Shown here: positions 32,985 through 62,825 of the stretch, piece after piece
How positions within the stretch are numbered: the first letter of the stretch is position 1
How the letters are laid out: each line of letters opens with the position of its first letter
From: Nordella sp. HKS 07
GTDB lineage: Bacteria > Pseudomonadota > Alphaproteobacteria > Rhizobiales > Aestuariivirgaceae
Assembly: GCF_011046735.1 (NCBI RefSeq)
Contig: NZ_CP049258.1
Location: forward strand, 3,800,001 to 3,864,000
Direction of reading: 5' to 3'
Length of the DNA: 64,000 nucleotides
Translations under genes and position numbers: made by a program
Notes under the pieces: model-generated
The model's database searches: none
What the model was told of the DNA's origin: nothing
Seen by the model: only the letters and a program-made list of their open reading frames with translations

Positions 32985-34250
32985 ATGCCGGAAGTCGATC
33001 TTAAGTGGACAGCTCGAGGTATCGAGGCCATCAGCGTCAAAGATAGGCACGACTTCACGGACACCCAGACCAAAGGGCTAACGCTCAGGGTGACCCCGAA
33101 CGGCGCCAAGTCGTGGGCCTTGCTGTATCGCCGCCGGAGCGATGGAAAGAGGAGAAGGACCACGATCGGCCCATGGCCCGAAATTGGCTTGGCCGAGGCC
33201 CGTGCCAGGGCCGCTGAGCTAAAGGTTAACATTCAGAGGGGATCAGACCCCGCGGGCGACGTTACGGCCTATAAAAAGGCCGACACCGTCGATCAACTAT
33301 TGGATCAATTCCTTGCCCATCATCCGCGACCGACGGCGGCCTGGACCCAGGAGGTTACCCGCATCTTCAAGAAGGATGTTCGACCTCTGATCGGCAGCGT
33401 CAAATTGCCCGATCTGTCGCGAGCGCACATTCGGGGCGTTTTAGATGCCGTCAGGAAGCGAGGGGCGACGGTCACCGTGAACCGGACGCTTGCAGCTATC
33501 AGGCGAGCTTTGTCCTGGGCCGTCAGCAAAGACCTTATCGACGCAAATCCGGCAATGAACATGCCGACCGATATTGAGGAAAGGCACAAGGAGCGCGCCC
33601 TGGGCATCGAGGAAATCCGCGGCTTCTGGACTGGGCTCGAGGTAGCAAAAATGTCAGCGCGATCCAGAATAGCTCTCCGGCTGGTGCTTGTGACAGGGCA
33701 AAGACCGGGTGAGGTCTGTGGCGTCAGGCATGACGAGCTCGATCTGGAAAATGCGACCTGGATTATTCCCGCGGCGCGAACGAAGAACCGCAAGCCACAC
33801 CTTGTTCCCTTGTCTGGTCTGGCAGTTGAGCTGCTCCGTCAGGCTATCGAGCTCGGAAAGCGCGGGGATTATTTGTTTCCAAGCCGTCCCAGGTCATCTG
33901 GATCAGGAAAACCCCATGAAAAGCCCGTGGAATCGCACGCGCTCTCACACGCGATGCGTGGTGAGCTAACAAGCCTCGGATTGTCAAAGGATCCGGCGAC
34001 ACCTCATGACCTTCGTCGGACGGCCGCCTCCCAGATGGCACGCTTGGGCATTCCCGACCGAATTGTAGGGCGCGTTCTCAATCACGGTTCGGAACTCCGG
34101 CGGACGATAACGAGCCAGGTCTATATCCATCACGACTATGCTGCCGAGAAGCGGCAGGCATTGGAAGCTTGGGCTTCCGAATTGGAGCGCATTTTTGCCG
34201 GAACTCAAAGGTTAAACAACGTTGTTGCTCTGGGGCGCCGAGGCGAGTGA
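32985..34250 (+). CDS. tyrosine recombinase, P4-type integrase
   Basis: A 421-residue site-specific recombinase. The N-terminus (FTDTQTKGLTLRVTPNGAKS then WALLYRR) is the DUF4102-like arm-binding domain of P4-type integrases, followed by a core-binding helical domain (about 100-195). Catalytic residues are R240 (TGQRPGEV), H341 and R344 (HDLRR), H367 (LNHGS) and a tyrosine at Y380 or Y385 (VYIHHDY). It starts 152 bases from the tRNA-Arg half site, which it presumably recognises. It overlaps the next gene by four bases (GTGA). It appears intact. Confidence 0.95.
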   Translation: MPEVDLKWTARGIEAISVKDRHDFTDTQTKGLTLRVTPNGAKSWALLYRRRSDGKRRRTTIGPWPEIGLAEARARAAELKVNIQRGSDPAGDVTAYKKADTVDQLLDQFLAHHPRPTAAWTQEVTRIFKKDVRPLIGSVKLPDLSRAHIRGVLDAVRKRGATVTVNRTLAAIRRALSWAVSKDLIDANPAMNMPTDIEERHKERALGIEEIRGFWTGLEVAKMSARSRIALRLVLVTGQRPGEVCGVRHDELDLENATWIIPAARTKNRKPHLVPLSGLAVELLRQAIELGKRGDYLFPSRPRSSGSGKPHEKPVESHALSHAMRGELTSLGLSKDPATPHDLRRTAASQMARLGIPDRIVGRVLNHGSELRRTITSQVYIHHDYAAEKRQALEAWASELERIFAGTQRLNNVVALGRRGE

Positions 34251-45213: not shown

Positions 45214-45243
45214 GGACATGCATGACATCCGGGTGGTCGAGGG

Positions 45244-45322
45244 TGCGGGCGGAGGGACTTGAACCCCCACGGGTCCACAGGAACCTAAATCCTGCGAGTC
45301 TGCCAATTTCACCTGTGCCCCC
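45244..45322 (-). tRNA. divergent tRNA-Leu(TAG)
   Basis: The minus strand has GGTGAAATTGGCAGA as D arm and CAGGA TTTAGGT TCCTG as anticodon arm (anticodon TAG). A short variable loop follows, then T arm GGGGG TTCAAGT CCCTC and acceptor 3' strand CGCCCGC with A at the discriminator. The acceptor helix has two mismatches (positions 2 and 7). The 3' end is ACCC rather than encoded ACCA. Such compact divergent tRNAs are typical of mobile elements and phages. Confidence 0.65.
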
Positions 45323-52341: not shown

Positions 52342-54027
52342 GTGTTCGACGAGGAATCCATGATGTACACACAGGGCCTCCTTCAGGGTCTAGATCGTCT
52401 GAAAGGCGTCAGTCTGTTCCCGCATCAGGCCGACGGCGTCGCATTCCTGCTCTCGAAGAAGCGAGCGATCCTTGGCGATGACATGGGCCTCGGCAAGACC
52501 CGCCAGGCAATCGCAGCAATGGAGGTCGGCGCACCCGATGGGCCTATCCTTATCGTCTGCCCGGCAGCCCTGAAGCTCAACTGGCGCCGCGAGATCAAGA
52601 TGGTCTTCCCCAATGCCCTCATCGAGGTCATCGGATTCGACAGTCAGCCGGTCGAAGGTGCCCGCTGGATCATCGTAAACTACGACCTACTGCGGAAGAA
52701 CGCCGAGAGGCTTCGATCGATCGGATGGGAAGGCGTCATCCTGGACGAGGCCCACTTCATCAAGAACAATAGCCAAAGGACATCCGACTGCCTCAAGCTG
52801 CTCGGGGTACAAAATGAGAAGCACGCCCCGCTGATCGGCCCCGGCTTCGTGTTCCTGCTGACCGGGACGCCGATGACCAACCGGCCGCGCGACCTCTTCA
52901 ACCTGCTGCGCTGCGTCGGCCATCCTGCGTCTCGCTCCTTCCTCTCTTTCGCCAAGCGCTACTGCGAAGCCTATCGCAACGATTTCGGCTGGGTGACGAC
53001 GGGCGCCTCGAACCTTGCTGAGCTCAACCTGCTGATGAAGGAGGTCATGCTTCGGCGCACCAAGGATGAAGTGCTTGACCTGCCGCCGAAGTTGCGGAGC
53101 TGGATCCCGGTCGATGTGTCCGCGAAGCCATCGGTTCTGAGGGCTATCGAGACGTTCCTGTCGTGGTATCAAAGGACGGATCCTGCCAGGCCGAACGACA
53201 AGGAGTTTTTAGGCCGGCTCACCAAGGTGAGGACGCAACTCCATGCAGCCAAGCACGACGCCGTAGCCGAGCGGATCAGGGACATCGTCGCTGCAGGCGA
53301 GAAGGTGGTCGTCTTCACCTGCTACTCAGCAGGTATCGAACGCCACAAGAAGGTCTGGGGCGACGCGGCGGTGACTATCACTGGCAGCGACAGCTTGGAA
53401 TCCCGTCAGGCCGCGGTCGATCGCTTTCAGGATGATCCGGACGCGAAGGTGGCATTGTGCAACCTCATCGCAGGCGGCGTGGGCATTACTCTCACAGCTT
53501 CGCGTCATGTCCTGTTCCAGGATTTGGACTGGGTGCCCGCCAATCATGCTCAGGCCGAGGACCGATGCTACCGCCTCGGACAGACTAGAAGCGTTACGGT
53601 CGAATACTTCCAGGCGGCGAACTCGCTCGACGGGTACATTGCCGAGCTCCTCGAACGAAAGATGCAGCTAATCGCGGCGGTCGAGGCGGACGAGCTTCCC
53701 GATGCCTCAATCCTGGAGGAGCTTCAAGCTGGGTTGCGGGCGCTTGCACCGGCTATGTTCGAGGAGGTCAGGCTCGCTCGTAGCGGGGCGGCGCCTGCCG
53801 CGACCGTTGAGGCGCTGACCCGATCACTGCGGCCAAGTGCGCCTGTCGAGACCGAGATCGAAATAAATGGCTATTGGGAGTTCCCCAGTTCGCGCAGTCC
53901 GGCCGAAATCTATCGTGTGACCTTCGGACGCGCTGGGCATCTGGAGTGCACGTGCAAGGGCTTCGAGTTCCGGGGAAATTGCAAGCACGTGCAAGAGGTG
54001 CGGGCTACGGGAGCTGACGGCCAATGA
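52342..54027 (+). CDS. SNF2-family helicase with C-terminal SWIM zinc finger
   Basis: A 561-residue DNA translocase; the start may instead be the ATG at 52360. Walker A is GDDMGLGKT (45-53), DEAH is at 135-138 in GVILDEAHFIKN, and the second RecA lobe has VVFTCYSAGIERHKKVW, NLIAGGVGITLTAS and QAEDRCYRLGQTRSV. The last 25 residues form a SWIM finger, C536, C538, C547 and H549 (CTCKGFEFRGNCKH). It is much shorter than DISARM DrmD. It converges with the DISARM operon from the opposite strand. Confidence 0.85.
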   Translation: MFDEESMMYTQGLLQGLDRLKGVSLFPHQADGVAFLLSKKRAILGDDMGLGKTRQAIAAMEVGAPDGPILIVCPAALKLNWRREIKMVFPNALIEVIGFDSQPVEGARWIIVNYDLLRKNAERLRSIGWEGVILDEAHFIKNNSQRTSDCLKLLGVQNEKHAPLIGPGFVFLLTGTPMTNRPRDLFNLLRCVGHPASRSFLSFAKRYCEAYRNDFGWVTTGASNLAELNLLMKEVMLRRTKDEVLDLPPKLRSWIPVDVSAKPSVLRAIETFLSWYQRTDPARPNDKEFLGRLTKVRTQLHAAKHDAVAERIRDIVAAGEKVVVFTCYSAGIERHKKVWGDAAVTITGSDSLESRQAAVDRFQDDPDAKVALCNLIAGGVGITLTASRHVLFQDLDWVPANHAQAEDRCYRLGQTRSVTVEYFQAANSLDGYIAELLERKMQLIAAVEADELPDASILEELQAGLRALAPAMFEEVRLARSGAAPAATVEALTRSLRPSAPVETEIEINGYWEFPSSRSPAEIYRVTFGRAGHLECTCKGFEFRGNCKHVQEVRATGADGQ

Positions 54028-55054: not shown

Positions 55055-55819
55055 TCAGACGCGCCTTATGACCTTTGTCTCGATCAGAGAATGCAGGTGA
55101 GCGCGGAGCCCCATTGGGATGTGTCCACCCTTGATTACGACGCCTGCTTCCATATTTTTCTCAAGCGCGTGGCCGGTCAAATTTGCACTGGTCAGGAATG
55201 CAATGCTCCCGTCGGCCACAGCCAACTTCGCATGAACCTTTCCTTCGGAAAACGGGGCTGATCTGCTGATCCAGCCATACATGGACGCCGTAGGCACAAG
55301 CCTCTTCATCGGGGCGATATGATCGACAGACAGACTTCCTCCATCGCTCGTAGACGTTTCCATAAGAATTCGAATCTCTATGTCGCGATGAGCAGCGGCA
55401 TTTAGTTCATCAACGATCGAGGAAACGCCGTGCGCGACGAAGCTGACGAGAAAGAGGTCGGTTCGGGCGTTCCGAATGATATCCAGGAGCACTTGTTCAG
55501 TGCGCCTCGTTGCCACGAACGGAGTCGTCGGACCCGTCCAGACGAATTCGACACTGGTCTCACGCAGCGTCTCTTGGCGGGCATGCGCAGCGCCCAGCAA
55601 TATGCCAGCCAGGACATCTCCGGCGATCGACGCCCGTTCCCAGGCAGTCAGAAGCCGATCCAGCGCGACCTGGGCAGCCGGTGTCCCTACTACTCGATAC
55701 AGCCCGTGATTTCTCATTAGCGGCGTCATTCTCCGAACGCGTGCGGCGATGACTCCGATCTTGGATGGAGACAGCAGGGAAACGAGTTCCATGACGGCAT
55801 TCAATAGAGGCTCCATCAC
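55055..55819 (-). CDS. drmC: DISARM protein DrmC (phospholipase D-like)
   Basis: A 254-residue PLD-superfamily protein, one of the three core DISARM components. The C-terminal HKD motif is H196, K198 and D203 (HAKLAVAD), followed by SANLTGHALEKNMEAGVV. The N-terminal half (MMEPLLNAVMELVSLLSPSK onward) is helical as in DrmC. The start overlaps the stop of drmB by four bases, so it is the last gene of the operon. PLD folds act as nucleases in many defence systems. DrmC's exact activity in DISARM is not established here. Confidence 0.85.
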   Translation of the reverse strand: MMEPLLNAVMELVSLLSPSKIGVIAARVRRMTPLMRNHGLYRVVGTPAAQVALDRLLTAWERASIAGDVLAGILLGAAHARQETLRETSVEFVWTGPTTPFVATRRTEQVLLDIIRNARTDLFLVSFVAHGVSSIVDELNAAAHRDIEIRILMETSTSDGGSLSVDHIAPMKRLVPTASMYGWISRSAPFSEGKVHAKLAVADGSIAFLTSANLTGHALEKNMEAGVVIKGGHIPMGLRAHLHSLIETKVIRRV

Positions 55820-57657
55820 ACGTTCCGAAAAAACGCAGCGTCGGGATATTCCAAGGTGGGAACCACTAATGCGCGATCAAGATGTCTGTTGCCCCGTTCG
55901 CAGGATGTCTCCGATACGAAGGAACAGGCGTGACAGGCCGCACCATGTAACGACTGATCCTTGCTAGGGTCGTGCTCGGAGCACAAGGGATCGGACGCGC
56001 AAATATGTGCCCGATCCAGAGCTTGGTGGAGCAGCCGCCCGAGATTCTCGGGTTTACCCAACTCGACCAATCCACCGAGCGTCCCGTCAGAGTCGGCGGC
56101 TGCGGTGTAGATGAGGAAGCCGGCCTGATCCTTGTCGCCGTCGACCTCGGCGTAAACCCGCTCGCGAATGCTGGCGGCATTGTAACCGCACTCGAGCGCC
56201 AGTTCCCTGATCAGCATGTGCGCGAGCGTATGGAGCATCACATACCGTGCACCAGGATAGCCTTCATTCGGATCCAGATTTCGCTTGTGCCGCCATCCGC
56301 GATGACCCGTGCGCAAACGAGCGTCGAGCGATTTGACCGCTTCCGTGTTCGCCCACGACTTCAGGGCGTCAGAGTCGAAGCGAACGAAAATTCCCTCGCC
56401 ATGGACCTGGGTCGCGGGCACCCAATCGGGAGCCGAACGCCCGAGCGGGGCACGTGGTGCCGCGGCGTCCCCCGTTCCTTCGTCAGGAGACTCGACACGC
56501 GTGAACCCCAGCAGCGCATTCACCTCGCGTAGCCGTTCGAGAAGCAGCACGCGTCTGACCGTCACTTCGAAGCCCGACGGAATTCCGACCTTCTTGCTCA
56601 TGAAATGTGGGTAGTCGGTCGGCGGATTCTCGGCGGTGAGGATATCCCATTCCGGACCCTTGAGATCACTTTGTCCGACTTCGGTCGTTCCATTCCGGTG
56701 TGCTACTATGGCGGACCATATCTGATCGTTCGTGAACTGCTCGATGCCGGGAAGCAGTGCGGCCTTTTTGAGCATCTTGACGGCGAGATCGACCTTGTCT
56801 GGAGACGAGACGTCTTCGAAGAATGTCCAGCCGTCTCCGACGAGTTGGATCAAGGGGCTGCCCGTTTGCGGGATGGCGAGGACCGACAAGGTCACAGGGA
56901 ACCAACTATTGGTGGCGCCGAGCAGAATGGCACGCGGCTCTTCGGCACAATCGTCGTCGAAGCGATCGACGTGCGAATGCCTTCCACGGCAGCCCGGGAG
57001 ATTATCCCGGCCAGCCTGTCCAAAGGCTTGGGCCATGTTCTTCGAGGCGCCGCAGCCATCGCATTTGACCCACAGATTCTCGGTCTGAAGCGATGCGCCG
57101 CTCTCGAAGAATCTCAGCGTCGCTCGACAATCGCTCGGTCCGCCGTGAACGAACCAATTCCACGCAAAATCGTCCAAATGCCCGGCACGACAAGCCATTA
57201 GAAAGCGGGCCGGCACGGCGTCGGCATCCCGCGCTCGCTGATCATTCTTCGAGCCACGGCAGCCCTCATGGACGAACCGGGTCAGCTCCGGGCGATATCT
57301 GTTTTCCTTCAGCTTGAACAAGCCGGCGTCGTATGGTGATAGCAGGCCGCATTTCACGCAGCGCAACCATCTCGGAAAAGGCTTCACTGGAACGCCGATC
57401 AGTGCAGCGGCGGAGAATGGATCAACGATGTCGCGTTCGCTGATCGGCGGCATACGCAAGGAGTCTACTTGCGGACCGAGCGCGCTTCGCACGTTCGCCA
57501 GCAGGCGAGCTTCCTGGATCGGTTGGCATCTATCCTTTTCCCAACGGTCGATCCCCATGGTGACCACCGAGAGGTTGGGCAGGTCTATCAGCGCACCGGG
57601 ACCGTAGGTCCACAGGAGCTGGCTCGGCCGGATCTCGCCTACGGGGGTCTTGCTCAT
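55816..57657 (-). CDS. drmB: DISARM protein DrmB (DUF1998)
   Basis: A 613-residue protein starting at the ATG at 57657 (MSKTPVGEIRPSQLLWTYGP), overlapping the drmA stop by four bases (ATGA). N-terminal GPGALIDLPNLSVV and the cysteine pairs in LRCVKCGLLS and VKCDGCGAS indicate zinc binding. The C-terminal DUF1998 domain shows YVMLHTLAHMLIRELALECG, GGLVELGKPENLGRLLHQAL and the CHACSFVSETSCERGN cysteines. DUF1998 partners DrmA in recognising and blocking incoming DNA. It appears intact. Confidence 0.9.
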   Translation of the reverse strand: MSKTPVGEIRPSQLLWTYGPGALIDLPNLSVVTMGIDRWEKDRCQPIQEARLLANVRSALGPQVDSLRMPPISERDIVDPFSAAALIGVPVKPFPRWLRCVKCGLLSPYDAGLFKLKENRYRPELTRFVHEGCRGSKNDQRARDADAVPARFLMACRAGHLDDFAWNWFVHGGPSDCRATLRFFESGASLQTENLWVKCDGCGASKNMAQAFGQAGRDNLPGCRGRHSHVDRFDDDCAEEPRAILLGATNSWFPVTLSVLAIPQTGSPLIQLVGDGWTFFEDVSSPDKVDLAVKMLKKAALLPGIEQFTNDQIWSAIVAHRNGTTEVGQSDLKGPEWDILTAENPPTDYPHFMSKKVGIPSGFEVTVRRVLLLERLREVNALLGFTRVESPDEGTGDAAAPRAPLGRSAPDWVPATQVHGEGIFVRFDSDALKSWANTEAVKSLDARLRTGHRGWRHKRNLDPNEGYPGARYVMLHTLAHMLIRELALECGYNAASIRERVYAEVDGDKDQAGFLIYTAAADSDGTLGGLVELGKPENLGRLLHQALDRAHICASDPLCSEHDPSKDQSLHGAACHACSFVSETSCERGNRHLDRALVVPTLEYPDAAFFRNV

Positions 57658-60600
57658 GCGTTGTCCTCGTCCGCTTGGGTCACCCGAGCTCGCCATGCCG
57701 GATCATTCGTCGAGCGAGCATCTTCCATCACCAATCTCACTCCGGGCTCGACCTCCCGCATCGACATCGGGACGGTCCAATCGGTCCAAGGCTTGACGCC
57801 AGGTGCTTCCAGCAGCGGATAAGCCGTTGGACCCGCACCATATTTCTGATAGACGAGCGTGCGACCGCCGACGCCGGCTTCCTTGGCCCATTCGTCTGCG
57901 CGGCTTTTCAGCTCCGCCTCCGTCAAAGTCTTCTTGCCGGCGTCTTCGGTGACCTCCCACGTCCGGGCAGCAACGGCTCGAATGGTTTCCCGCATTTCGC
58001 TGCGACTAGGGCTGTTCATCGCACCAGCACCAGTGTTCGGGGCGAACGGGTCGTAGGAGTGGCGCATGATCGAGAGCATCGCACCGGTGAGTCCGCGGTC
58101 CAGCGCTCGGGGGGAGAAGGGCGTGACCGACTGCGCCTCGACATGCTGATAAAAGGTCGCGTGATATTGTTCGAACGTCTCGTAATGCGAGAGATCACGC
58201 GGCCGCGCCCACGTGAGCACGGTGGCGACCAAGCCAGGAGGCGTGCGGCCCACGCGGCTGGTCGCTTGGATATATTCGGCTGTGCCCTTTGGCTGGCCGT
58301 TGACGACCATGACGCCTAACCGGTTCACGTCGACGCCGACCGAAAGCATATTCGTCGCCAGGACGACATCGATCGGACGGGGATCTCCGGGATTCCTGCT
58401 CGAGGCCCATTTGCCTGTCGCCGAATCGAATGTCCCGTCGAAGGGCACTTCGAGTTGATCGAGATAGCGCGGGATATCGTGACTGGAGACGCGCGACGTC
58501 AACTCGCGGACGTCGTCGACCCGACGTTGCGACAAGCCCGGTCGATCGACGAGGCTCATGCTCACGCGGAAGGAACGCGTCTGGACGTCGTCTTCTGCGA
58601 GGCGCTTCATCCCGCCGAGTTCACGCAGAGAGTTGAAGTAGCCGACGAGCGTCATGTAGGGGTCGGCCACCGGCCCAAACCGATCGAACAGTGCCTGCGC
58701 GGCGGTCAGGAACGCCGTGTAGGTCCTGATCAGCACCGCAGGACGCGAGCTGCCGGGTGCACAGATACCCATATACCGCCGCCCTGGCTTTTCGCTGATC
58801 GGTCTCTGAACCGAGAAGAAGTTGTCTTCGACGTCCAGGCCTGAAGGTGGGAACACCGAGATACGGCGCATGAACACATTGCGCACCTGATCATCGGCCC
58901 GCCGCACGGTCGCGGTGGAGGCGACGACCTTGGGGCGAACCTTCGTGTCGCCAAGAGTCCAGCTGCTCAGTTCGTCGACGGCCGTCTCGTACAGACCGAC
59001 CATAGTGCCTAGTGGGCCGCTTATGAGATGGAACTCGTCCTGGATGATGAGGTCTGGCGGCCTGATGGCACGTACCTGCTTTACGCTGGCGGCCGGATGT
59101 GAACCCGTCGCTCGGTGCCCGGTGCCACAGCCGTGGCTCGGCCAGAGCAAGCCATGGCGTCCACACTCCTGATCGACGCGGCCGAACAGGTTCCGCACCT
59201 CAGGGCGCCAGGCCATCATCGCGAACTTGTCCACGGTCGCGATCATCATCGTCGGTGGGCGGTGATAAATTTCCTCGTCGACGACCTTCACGGGAAGCCC
59301 CGGGTGAGACTGGCCGTTGGACTTCGCCTTCGAGAAATCGCAGCTACCGAGCTTGTCGCCGCAGTGGATCAGCGTTCTGCCGGCGATCCTGTCGACCTCG
59401 ATGTCGCGTCCACCGGAGATCTCCGAACCGCACCAAGGGCAGCTGGTCAGCTGTGCAGGCGAAGCGATACCCGCCTTGTTACGATCGTTGTTGCGAATGG
59501 CCTGGACCGCTTGGTGAGACGCTTCGGTCGTTCCCGGTGTCACACGATTGCCGACCCAGAGACCGAGCGTGAACGGTTCCTTGCCCCACGTCTTGTCGTC
59601 TGCACGACGGATGACTTCCATCGCGCAGAGTAGCGTCGTTGCCCTCTGGAACTGCTGCAGCGTCAGCAGCCGCAGCGTGTAGCGCATGATGACGGCGAGA
59701 CCGCGGGAAGCGTCGAGGCCGCCCAGATCATTCTTCAGGCGGCGCATGGCCATGGCGAACGCCGCCACGCCGAGATAGGCCTCGGTCTTGCCGCCACCCG
59801 TCGGGAACCAGAGCAGATCGGCGAACGCCTCGACCGGCTTCGTCCGGTCCGGATGAGTCGGATCGGCGAGCGACGGGATTGACAGTAGCAGGAATGCCAG
59901 CTGGAACGGGCGCCACGATCTGTTCTTCGTCACGTCCAACGTGGTCACATCCACGGTCTCGTTTCGTCTGCGCTTAAGAGCGTAGATGCTTCGGATACGC
60001 TGCATCGCCATGGACCGGTTGGCGAAGCGGAACGCCTCCAGCGCCTTGGGATCCGCAAAGAGAGTGTCCATGCCGTCCCGAAGGCGGCGCAGGATGTCCT
60101 CGCAGCGTTCTATGACGTCCTTTCCTGGATCGTCGAAGTCGGTGACCTCGGTTCCCAGCCGCGTTTTCTGCTCGACGATCCAAACCGCGTAGTCGTCGAC
60201 GAGGCACGAGAGAGCTTCTCGCAGCGCGTCCGGCGCCACCTCCGCCAACCAGGTCATGTCGAGCCAGTCGTCGTCGACCATACGCCGCGTGGCTGGGCGG
60301 TCCCTGGGATCAAGTCCGGGCGTTTCCGTTACAGCGACCTCGTATCGAGGGATGATTTCGGTACGGATAAGATGCGCCTTCGTCGAATTTTCGGGTGTCG
60401 TTTCAGCGTGGACCGACACGCCGTGCCCGACGGCAAATTCGAGGCGATTGCGATAGATCAGCGCCAGTCGGTCGCGTTCTGGATCGTCGACGATGATTTC
60501 GTTGGTCGGGCGCCGCCGGAAGACTGATTTTTCGTCGAGACCATCTGGGGCGGTAACAACGATTTCCGGTTGAAACAGCCAGGCGCGATCCTTGTTGTCG

Positions 60601-62825
60601 TCCGGCTCTACCTGGCCGTTGACCAGGAACAGTGTGATCAGCCGTTCCCCCTTATTGTTCGTCCGGACTGTGCCTTGGAGGCGGACGTCCGGCTGCTCCC
60701 GATCAGGCGTAGAAGGCCTTATCTGGCCGTCGTAGAGCGACAATGAGACGACACCACCGCACGGAATCCGCTTCCACACCCTGACCTTGTTTTCTTCCTC
60801 CTTGCCAGTCTCACGGTTCTTGCGGACCTTGACGACATCATGCTCTTCGTTGGGCACACGCTCGTAGCGCCCCCATCGGGCTTCGACCGCGATCGTGTTG
60901 ACATCCGGTGCGACGCAAAAAGTGAAACCCATACTGGACGGCACGAGGGATTGGTTGTTGGTAGTGTCGATCTCATCGAGTGCGTCACTTTCGGGCTCCA
61001 CCCGCCCAGATGCACTAGCGAATTCTGCGCCCGGTTCGTGGATCGGCGCCGTTCGTTCGTCCTCGAGATCGCCAACCTCATCCGCAGCGGCAGCCGGTTC
61101 GACTCGGGGCGCTTCATCGTCGTCCGGCCGACGCGGCGCGAGCTTCCCCACTAGGTAACGGTCGCGGACGCTCATGTCATTGATAAGCTCGTGCGGTCCT
61201 CCCGCCGGGCCGAGGAGATCGTCTCGTACGGCCAGCTCCAAAATATCCCGCACGTAAACGACGTCTTCGATCAGTGAAATCGTCTCGGGTGCATCGCCTG
61301 TCAGCTTCTGCGTCGCATAGACGAAAGAGGGCCAGTCGAGCCTTTGGATCCGTCCAGATGAGACGAGTGACAGCCCTAGGTCGTTCAATGAGGCTGTTTC
61401 TTCGATTATCGCATTTCGCGCGAGGAGGAGCATGGTTTTCGTCTCAGTCGAGCGAATGCGCAGCACTTGGCAGATGCGGGAGATCCTGTTCTCCACCGGC
61501 GAGACGACCAACACCCAATCCCCCTCGTGAATACCGCCGAAATGATTTGGATCGCCTTTGAACTCTAGGATATAAGGCGACTGGCTTCGGCCCTCGGCCA
61601 AATCCGGCGCTATCCAGGAATTCATCGCTGTTGCCACAGAGCTCTTCAAACTTGCCTCGTCTTCCAAACGCTGTCCGATAACATTATTTGCCATGTTCAC
61701 CTGCAATTCCGTGAGCCCAGTGACGATGATCCTCTCATTGAAGCGTTCATTGCCTAGTTGAGCATTGAGCCGGCCAAGCAGTTCATCGAGAAAGCTGCTT
61801 GAAAGCGATTTCACGCCAGTGAAATCGATTTTGATAGGCCCCTCGACCTCAGGTAACAGCGCGAGGACCTTTCGCCGGATTCGGGTTGCTGGAGGACGGC
61901 TGCCCGTGTGGCTGCACTCGTCGCGAATGATGATGCCGCGATCCGCCACCCGCTCTCCCTCAGAAAAAATGAAGACGGATCCACGCTCCCCGATCCAGGT
62001 CTCACCGAGAGGAACGGGATGGTCAAGATCGAAAGACATCAGTACACCGGTCCCCAAGATATGGGGTCCATTCCGAAAGTGACCGTCTCCACCTCCGCGC
62101 ATCTCGTATGTCGCCGAACCCGACCAGACGGAAAGCGAGCCGTGGTTCTTCCGAAGGATTTCGAGACTGCCGGCCATTCCGTTTCCCTGGCCAATCGCCT
62201 TGTCGCGCGTGATGCCCCGACGTAGAGCCATCTCGATCGCGTCTTTATCGCTGTCGAGGGAGAAGGATCCCGAGAGGGATCCTCGGATCCCGATCCCACC
62301 ATCGCAAATCGCTATGTCGAGGTGTTTCTCTTGGGGGAAAAGCTGCGCGCAGACCACACCGGGGCTCATGGAATTGGCATGGATAAAGATGTTGTCGATG
62401 ATTTCATTTACCGCCCATTCGAAGGCTGGCAGGAATGCGGGCGCGTCATCGAATTGCTGAAGCACCATATCGGCGATCCTGTTGACGGCCTCGAAGACCG
62501 CCTCGCCGTCCTTCACTAGGAGGATAGGAATGAAACGGCCGGCCTCCGGCAAACGTCGATGGTTAGGTTCCGCCAGCCCAAGAGACTGGTGGAAGTTCAT
62601 TCGCGCAAGATAAATGATAGATGGCCCATCGCCCGAAACATGAATCGTGCGTCCGGCAGACTTCTGGCTGAGCAGCCAACTCGTCAGGAGCCCAATTGCC
62701 CCTGTCTCTAGAAAGCAGTCGCTGGCGACGCGTACTACGATGGATTGGTCAGCGGGCTCACATTGTCCAATAGCCGCTTGAATCTCGTCAACGCCAGCCC
62801 TACCAGCAAGTGCGATCGTCGCCAT
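57654..62825 (-). CDS. drmA: DISARM helicase DrmA with N-terminal STAS-GHKL ATPase-DUF4325 module
   Basis: One uninterrupted 1723-residue protein. Residues 1-90 resemble a STAS domain (FLETGAIGLLTSWLL). Residues 110-270 are a GHKL ATPase: N box EWAVNEIIDN (E136-N145), DGGIGI (175-180) and GQGNGMAGS (212-220). Residues 280-385 match DUF4325 (IKIDFTGVKSLSSSFLDELL). After a linker, DrmA begins near 524 (VRDILELAVRDDLLGPAGGP) and has LLWFPTGGGKTEAYLG, QDEFHLISGPLG, a CPWC site and the helicase end NMLSVGVDVNRLGVMVVNGQ ... TSRVGR. DrmA unwinds or loads on DNA with DrmB. The fused front half is unusual and suggests ATP-dependent or partner-switching control. Confidence 0.88.
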   Translation of the reverse strand: MATIALAGRAGVDEIQAAIGQCEPADQSIVVRVASDCFLETGAIGLLTSWLLSQKSAGRTIHVSGDGPSIIYLARMNFHQSLGLAEPNHRRLPEAGRFIPILLVKDGEAVFEAVNRIADMVLQQFDDAPAFLPAFEWAVNEIIDNIFIHANSMSPGVVCAQLFPQEKHLDIAICDGGIGIRGSLSGSFSLDSDKDAIEMALRRGITRDKAIGQGNGMAGSLEILRKNHGSLSVWSGSATYEMRGGGDGHFRNGPHILGTGVLMSFDLDHPVPLGETWIGERGSVFIFSEGERVADRGIIIRDECSHTGSRPPATRIRRKVLALLPEVEGPIKIDFTGVKSLSSSFLDELLGRLNAQLGNERFNERIIVTGLTELQVNMANNVIGQRLEDEASLKSSVATAMNSWIAPDLAEGRSQSPYILEFKGDPNHFGGIHEGDWVLVVSPVENRISRICQVLRIRSTETKTMLLLARNAIIEETASLNDLGLSLVSSGRIQRLDWPSFVYATQKLTGDAPETISLIEDVVYVRDILELAVRDDLLGPAGGPHELINDMSVRDRYLVGKLAPRRPDDDEAPRVEPAAAADEVGDLEDERTAPIHEPGAEFASASGRVEPESDALDEIDTTNNQSLVPSSMGFTFCVAPDVNTIAVEARWGRYERVPNEEHDVVKVRKNRETGKEEENKVRVWKRIPCGGVVSLSLYDGQIRPSTPDREQPDVRLQGTVRTNNKGERLITLFLVNGQVEPDDNKDRAWLFQPEIVVTAPDGLDEKSVFRRRPTNEIIVDDPERDRLALIYRNRLEFAVGHGVSVHAETTPENSTKAHLIRTEIIPRYEVAVTETPGLDPRDRPATRRMVDDDWLDMTWLAEVAPDALREALSCLVDDYAVWIVEQKTRLGTEVTDFDDPGKDVIERCEDILRRLRDGMDTLFADPKALEAFRFANRSMAMQRIRSIYALKRRRNETVDVTTLDVTKNRSWRPFQLAFLLLSIPSLADPTHPDRTKPVEAFADLLWFPTGGGKTEAYLGVAAFAMAMRRLKNDLGGLDASRGLAVIMRYTLRLLTLQQFQRATTLLCAMEVIRRADDKTWGKEPFTLGLWVGNRVTPGTTEASHQAVQAIRNNDRNKAGIASPAQLTSCPWCGSEISGGRDIEVDRIAGRTLIHCGDKLGSCDFSKAKSNGQSHPGLPVKVVDEEIYHRPPTMMIATVDKFAMMAWRPEVRNLFGRVDQECGRHGLLWPSHGCGTGHRATGSHPAASVKQVRAIRPPDLIIQDEFHLISGPLGTMVGLYETAVDELSSWTLGDTKVRPKVVASTATVRRADDQVRNVFMRRISVFPPSGLDVEDNFFSVQRPISEKPGRRYMGICAPGSSRPAVLIRTYTAFLTAAQALFDRFGPVADPYMTLVGYFNSLRELGGMKRLAEDDVQTRSFRVSMSLVDRPGLSQRRVDDVRELTSRVSSHDIPRYLDQLEVPFDGTFDSATGKWASSRNPGDPRPIDVVLATNMLSVGVDVNRLGVMVVNGQPKGTAEYIQATSRVGRTPPGLVATVLTWARPRDLSHYETFEQYHATFYQHVEAQSVTPFSPRALDRGLTGAMLSIMRHSYDPFAPNTGAGAMNSPSRSEMRETIRAVAARTWEVTEDAGKKTLTEAELKSRADEWAKEAGVGGRTLVYQKYGAGPTAYPLLEAPGVKPWTDWTVPMSMREVEPGVRLVMEDARSTNDPAWRARVTQADEDNA

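Follow-up and report, generated by a model that had tools for sequence, protein, structure and literature searches.

A predicted kinase–substrate module of the CapK/VapK–CapS/VapS kind fused to the DISARM helicase DrmA in Nordella sp. HKS 07

We analysed a stretch of 64,000 nucleotides from the genome of Nordella sp. HKS 07 (NZ_CP049258.1, positions 3,800,001 to 3,864,000; hereafter the window), in which the drmA gene of a class 1 DISARM operon encodes a STAS-like domain, a GHKL kinase-type domain and a DUF4325 STAS-like domain ahead of the helicase. The three domains, in this order and with intact catalytic motifs and conserved serines at the start of a predicted helix, are joined to drmA in DISARM operons from two lineages; in the window they were imported by recombination. 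We favour the reading, with a probability of roughly 0.55, that the module is a STAS-GHKL serine/threonine kinase together with its own DUF4325 STAS substrate, similar to CapK/VapK and CapS/VapS, fused in cis to gate DrmAB. More tentatively, we propose that a complete immune switch of the CapKS/VapKS kind gates the DISARM helicase through intra-protein phosphorylation and travels from one DISARM operon to another as a recombination cassette, replacing the N-terminus of drmA and sometimes bringing a methyl-dependent nuclease along. The fused DrmA is a variant of the known DISARM system.

The first-pass annotation had described a DrmA preceded by about 520 extra residues with these domains. The fusion and the domains hold, but the borders had to be corrected: compared with ordinary class 1 DrmA, the protein carries 399 extra N-terminal residues, and residues 400–517 are ordinary DrmA, forming the EVE-like N-terminal domain expected of this class (Table 1). 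That description also overlooked that the module holds a probable substrate as well as a kinase, and that the segment was imported with a methyl-dependent nuclease. The reading frame is uninterrupted through all 1723 codons. NCBIfam profile NF038325 (DISARM_DrmAS) matches residues 525–1700 with 1464.9 bits (cut-off 950), and the PADLOC DrmA profile PDLC02567 covers residues 27–1719. The latter profile spans 1750 positions and also matches free-standing modules, a sign that further fused proteins may have been used to build it.

The kinase part was compared in an alignment of 18 STAS-GHKL proteins, comprising the two fused DrmA proteins, two CapK, two kinases of the vapKSC type, nine proteins that either contain DUF4325 or have it encoded by a partner gene, and three others. 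The Glu and Asn of the N box, the Asp-Gly-Gly of the G1 box and the glycines of the G2 box are present in all 18, so that the boxes are indeed intact, as first annotated. Fold and boxes are those of the GHKL serine kinases SpoIIAB and RsbW, and the order of STAS followed by GHKL is that of CapK and VapK. An N-terminal helix-turn-helix (HTH) domain of the CapK type is absent, as the fused protein begins at the first STAS strand. This first STAS-like domain is modelled with a predicted local distance difference test (pLDDT) score of only about 52–71, and structural alignment (VIA-align) is uninformative on the folds of residues 1–96 and 269–396, which its rows barely cover. Phmmer searches of residues 1–288 and 289–400 against PDB sequences gave nothing useful, and profiles were required.

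The DUF4325 domain matches PF14213 with an E-value of 2.4e-10 (40.4 bits; gathering cut-off 23). The best PDB match of its profile is Escherichia VapS (E 4.1e-5), and alignment to CapS/VapS with hhalign gives a probability of 93.2 and an E-value of 2.9e-7. Ser344 is kept in 11 of 11 aligned DUF4325 domains and Ser343 in nine, the other two having Pro and Glu. The former falls over Ser54 of CapS (hhalign) and the latter over Ser48 of VapS (profile), a position that takes 18 of the 134 residues in the chain to be a tag. The domain has the conserved Ser/Thr expected at the phosphosite of a CapS/VapS substrate; unlike those substrates, which are separate proteins binding an effector or DNA, it shares its chain with DrmA. 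In a split GHKL and DUF4325 gene pair elsewhere (L143:1273-2581), the equivalent of Ser343 is a glutamate and that of Ser344 a serine.

These features place the module close to several known systems. VapK-VapS-VapC (PMC13373217) shows the same order of STAS-GHKL kinase, STAS protein with a conserved Ser/Thr, and effector, and the DUF4325 profile matches VapS; the fused DrmA is, however, one chain rather than three genes, its effector is DrmA rather than a PIN nuclease, and no aromatic residue is seen at the place of W68/F54. With CapK-CapS (PMC13373217), the module shares a STAS-GHKL kinase and STAS substrate tied to immune operons, the N box, and the alignment of Ser344 with CapS Ser54. It differs in having neither HTH nor winged HTH domains and in not keeping W68, K237 and K239, and it would control protein activity instead of transcription. 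SpoIIAB/SpoIIAA and RsbW/RsbV share the GHKL fold and antagonist-type STAS domains, whereas the fused DrmA has no sigma factor and joins kinase and STAS to a helicase. CapW/BrxR and CapH-CapP are DNA-damage-responsive regulators of operons that include DISARM (PMC13373217); they too form a stress-responsive control layer beside an immune operon, but theirs is transcriptional, whereas the DrmA module would act within the protein itself. The partner-switch character proposed in the first-pass annotation is supported domain by domain, and also by a second genome (see below). Support is good at the level of architecture, and for DUF4325 and the GHKL fold it extends to homology.

A contig scan with six peptide patterns gave 213 relatives of DrmA, of which the best 80 were analysed. 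Such a survey of homologues had been proposed with the first-pass annotation, and it shows the fusion to be rare, with one further fused protein among the 78 in which the N-terminus could be assessed. It has 1736 residues and is encoded in the metagenome-assembled genome Robiginitomaculum NORP61 (locus L073), in an operon drmD-drmMI-drmA-drmB-drmC whose gene names rest on order, size and similarity. Between this protein and that of the window, the module is 59.9% identical, the core 62.0% and the EVE-like domain 38.2%. At E 1e-3, the other 79 of the best 80 loci, some of them cut by contig ends, yielded no module encoded separately from drmA.

In wider sampling, NF038325 matches at 1e-50 in 15 of 398 genomes of a phylum sample, six of them above the cut-off, and any match to the module occurs in 7 of 398; PDLC02567 matches in 15 of 397 genomes of an order sample. 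Each sample shows a single genome with the fused form, that of the window itself (1 of 15 DrmA-bearing genomes), as judged from open-frame length, with several matches partial and the DrmA fragment of one genome (G185) leaving its contig before the N-terminus. In the order of Robiginitomaculum NORP61, the module matches in 3 of 249 genomes, its own included. Neither of two plasmid records examined (of three matching) is fused, nor is any of the five relatives among 86 pattern matches in IMG/VR. A literature search, mostly without subscription papers, returned no title or abstract opening among the matches listed that describes a DrmA fusion, and the main text of PMC12458937 does not mention GHKL, histidine kinase or STAS.

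DNA comparison explains how the fused gene arose. Nine unfused relatives (L053, L054, L056, L075, L077, L119, L121, L125 and L127, out of 14 loci compared) begin to match at codon 518, from which they are 81.9–83.3% identical. For L053, protein identity jumps from 32 of 120 at residues 391–510 to 43 of 45 at 526–570. The same nine match again along the first 77–86 codons of a small gene upstream, orf150, which correspond to the start of drmA in them; in seven of the nine, this match continues in from the end of drmMI. The first part of orf150 is 58–71% identical (63–80 residues aligned) to the unfused drmA N-terminus in these relatives; orf150 is what remains of the 5' end of the resident gene. 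An imported segment of 2957–2986 nt with the nuclease, module and EVE-like domain has thus taken the place of 108–139 nt of drmA. The first-pass annotation had named a sequencing error hiding a stop or start near 61260 as a possible refutation. Neither a missed stop nor an assembly error is supported: a real junction lies within 14 bases of that place (codon 518, about 61274), but it is a recombination boundary, identical against all nine relatives, not a frameshift.

The junction in mid-gene is sharp, and together with the remnant reading frame of the resident gene it could speak for a degenerate or non-functional recombinant, or for an assembly error. We regard this as very unlikely, since the 1723-codon frame is intact, drmB, drmC and drmD score above curated cut-offs, drmMI gives a near full-length PADLOC match, the genome is a single contig with one match to the fused protein, and a fused homologue exists in NORP61.

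The import itself, which is clear, also fits a different scenario, in which a cassette of methyl-dependent nuclease and free-standing STAS-GHKL-DUF4325 function landed in drmA, where the frame stayed open by chance and the module remains independent and merely tethered. Free-standing STAS-GHKL-DUF4325 proteins do occur, in four phage contigs of IMG/VR (L136, L137, L138 and L139) and on a Nostoc plasmid, as well as in genome G185. Nevertheless, the fusion recurs in the NORP61 operon, which belongs to another DISARM lineage (core 62% identical) and has neither the nuclease nor a remnant reading frame, and the imported part includes a fitting EVE-like domain, so that the N-terminus of DrmA is complete again. 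Moreover, the two fused modules are 57–60% alike, compared with 24–27% for two free-standing ones (whole module) and 22–33% for four others (DUF4325). We consider this scenario improbable. In three other DISARM operons (L105, L106 and L131), a nuclease of the same family (63–65% identical) directly precedes an unfused drmA; nuclease and module therefore need not travel together.

Relatives of the module outside drmA are varied. The genes on the four phage contigs appear to lie among or beside prophage genes and are possibly accessory defence or control genes. Split GHKL/DUF4325 pairs are found on an Alicyclobacillus plasmid and at L140 and L143. At L134:3395-9359, a STAS-GHKL gene immediately precedes a pair of genes, one for a type III methyltransferase and one of ResIII type. 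At L133:6065-9660, such a gene overlaps a helicase gene by 4 bases, kinase and helicase being unfused neighbours; the helicase, presumably YprA-like, has TIGR03817 as its best NCBIfam profile (195 bits, below the cut-off of 874.1). This link was rejected as a recurring one, as it stands alone: the three matching genomes among 295 include L133's own, and at the other loci the gene is followed by one with a sub-threshold CoiA_N match (L145) or is a fragment (L146).

Several observations weigh against gating of DrmAB by phosphorylation. By sequence, the module family profile matches two ordinary histidine kinases (E 0.0022 and 0.0026) above SpoIIAB (E 0.018). The structure model of the fused protein reaches only intermediate confidence (mean pLDDT 75, predicted template modelling score 0.57). 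Among the assessable relatives, 77 of 78 DrmA proteins lack the module, and only two fused genes were found. In CapK, mutation of W68 abolishes activation by single-stranded DNA (ssDNA), and F54 of VapK has been equated with W68 (PMC13373217). No such stacking aromatic occurs in residues 7–14 of either fused protein, F6 of the NORP61 protein sitting just ahead of this stretch, and K237/K239 of CapK are replaced by Pro/Gln and Pro/Leu. The best-understood trigger, ssDNA, therefore does not transfer. The objection from W68 is weak, because the loop aligned poorly and both vapKSC-type kinases are without an aromatic in that column. F78 (RMNFHQ) was dropped as a candidate ssDNA-sensing residue, being a general aromatic of the family (Phe or Trp in 16 of the 18 proteins, whereas L140 and L143 have Leu); in the capKS pair L142, which carries the published numbering (W68, N-box N218, CapS S54), W68 lies in a different loop from F78. 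Finally, the module might serve to dimerise the protein or as a scaffold. As an ATP-driven clamp or dimeriser like the GHKL ATPases of the MutL/MORC type, a role that we consider unlikely, it would aid assembly of DrmA on DNA without phosphotransfer. No S5-type Pfam match is listed for the module, and topoisomerase ATPase domains are among its weaker structural matches.

The operon itself belongs to DISARM class 1. The core triplet drmA, drmB and drmC scores above the NCBIfam cut-offs throughout, and the remaining genes lie beyond the window edge on the same strand. DrmD, an SNF2-type helicase of 1037 residues, matches NF038317 (DISARM_DrmD) with 1345.3 bits (cut-off 610). DrmMI, a methyltransferase of 1369 residues, has the DrmMI profile PDLC02643 as its best PADLOC match (1832.6 bits over residues 2–1344); it also scores high with a type IIG profile (1607.9), contains Eco57I/MmeI Pfam domains, and has no NCBIfam match at 1e-10. 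The interval between drmMI and drmA holds orf150 and the gene of the 401-residue AspBHI-type nuclease. Enzymes of this type act on 5-methylcytosine, and a C5-cytosine methyltransferase gene lies farther upstream in the same direction (L147:10110-11264), making conflict or division of labour possible. Serratia DrmAB (class 1; PDB 7S9V/7S9W) shares the EVE-like domain, trigger-loop region, helicase core, adjoining drmB/drmC and upstream drmD/drmMI, but has neither the 399 N-terminal residues with kinase and substrate nor the nuclease gene inserted upstream. Near the operon lies a gene for an SNF2-type helicase of 561 residues (52342–54027, + strand), in which a SWIM zinc finger scores below threshold. 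On the drmC side are a tyrosine integrase gene (32985–34250, +) and a tRNA-Leu gene (45242–45322, −), a possible genomic island.

Table 1. Features of the fused drmA gene and its surroundings, in window coordinates.
Feature	Position	Strand	Basis
drmA fusion gene, 1723 residues, STAS-GHKL-DUF4325-EVE-like-DrmA core	57654–62825	−	Open frame; DrmA profiles
First STAS-like domain, residues 1–92	62550–62825	−	Family profile matches anti-sigma antagonist TM1442 (E 0.0012); strand/helix pattern of model
GHKL kinase-type domain, residues 95–269; N box E141/N145, G1 D175-G177-G179, G2 G214-G216	62019–62543	−
DUF4325 STAS-like domain, residues 290–396, probable phospho-acceptor	61638–61958	−	PF14213 and VapS/CapS profile matches
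Ser343-Ser344, candidate phosphorylation sites, start of predicted helix 343–357	61794–61799	−	DUF4325 alignment; model
EVE-like domain, residues 400–517, imported version of normal class 1 DrmA N-terminal domain	61275–61628	−
Recombination boundary, codon 518	61273–61275	−	DNA similarity to nine unfused relatives begins here
Resident DrmA core, residues 518–1723	57654–61274	−	As much as 90% identity with unfused DrmA of alphaproteobacteria
DrmA trigger loop match, about residues 565–626	60948–61133	−	Alignment to Serratia DrmA residues 176–232; loop as in PMC9142583
drmB	55816–57696	−	NF038324, 745.6 bits, above cut-off
drmC, PLD-like nuclease	55055–55819	−	NF038319, 238.1 bits, above cut-off
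AspBHI-type methyl-dependent nuclease, 401 residues	62832–64000, extending past the window to about 64037	−	RE_AspBHI_N (E 1.3e-47), Mrr_cat, PADLOC mREase_II; complete open reading frame in L002
orf150, 150 residues, just past window end	about 64038–64490 (L002:14038–14490)	−	Begins at drmMI stop

We hypothesize that DUF4325, while unphosphorylated, would rest against either the GHKL domain or DrmAB and help to keep the EVE-like domain and trigger loop closed. A phage-related signal would switch the kinase on, Ser343/Ser344 would receive phosphate from the kinase of the same chain or of a dimer partner, and the phosphorylated domain would undock, allowing DrmAB to load on DNA. That the module is an active kinase, which serine it targets, which way it switches and any effect on DrmAB are predictions, and gating of DISARM by the module is plausible.

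In the published DrmAB structures, restraint is exerted through a passive trigger loop (PMC9142583). If our reading is correct, the attached kinase and substrate would instead act as a safety catch that is active and responds to a signal, and would link DISARM with the newly described CapK/VapK switches. The presence of kinase, target and effector in one protein would offer a sharp test of whether phosphorylation licenses a DISARM helicase. The N-terminus of drmA can be rebuilt through recombination, and the rebuilt protein suggests a new way of controlling DISARM, akin to the kinase/target switches that, as separate proteins, turn immunity on in other bacteria.
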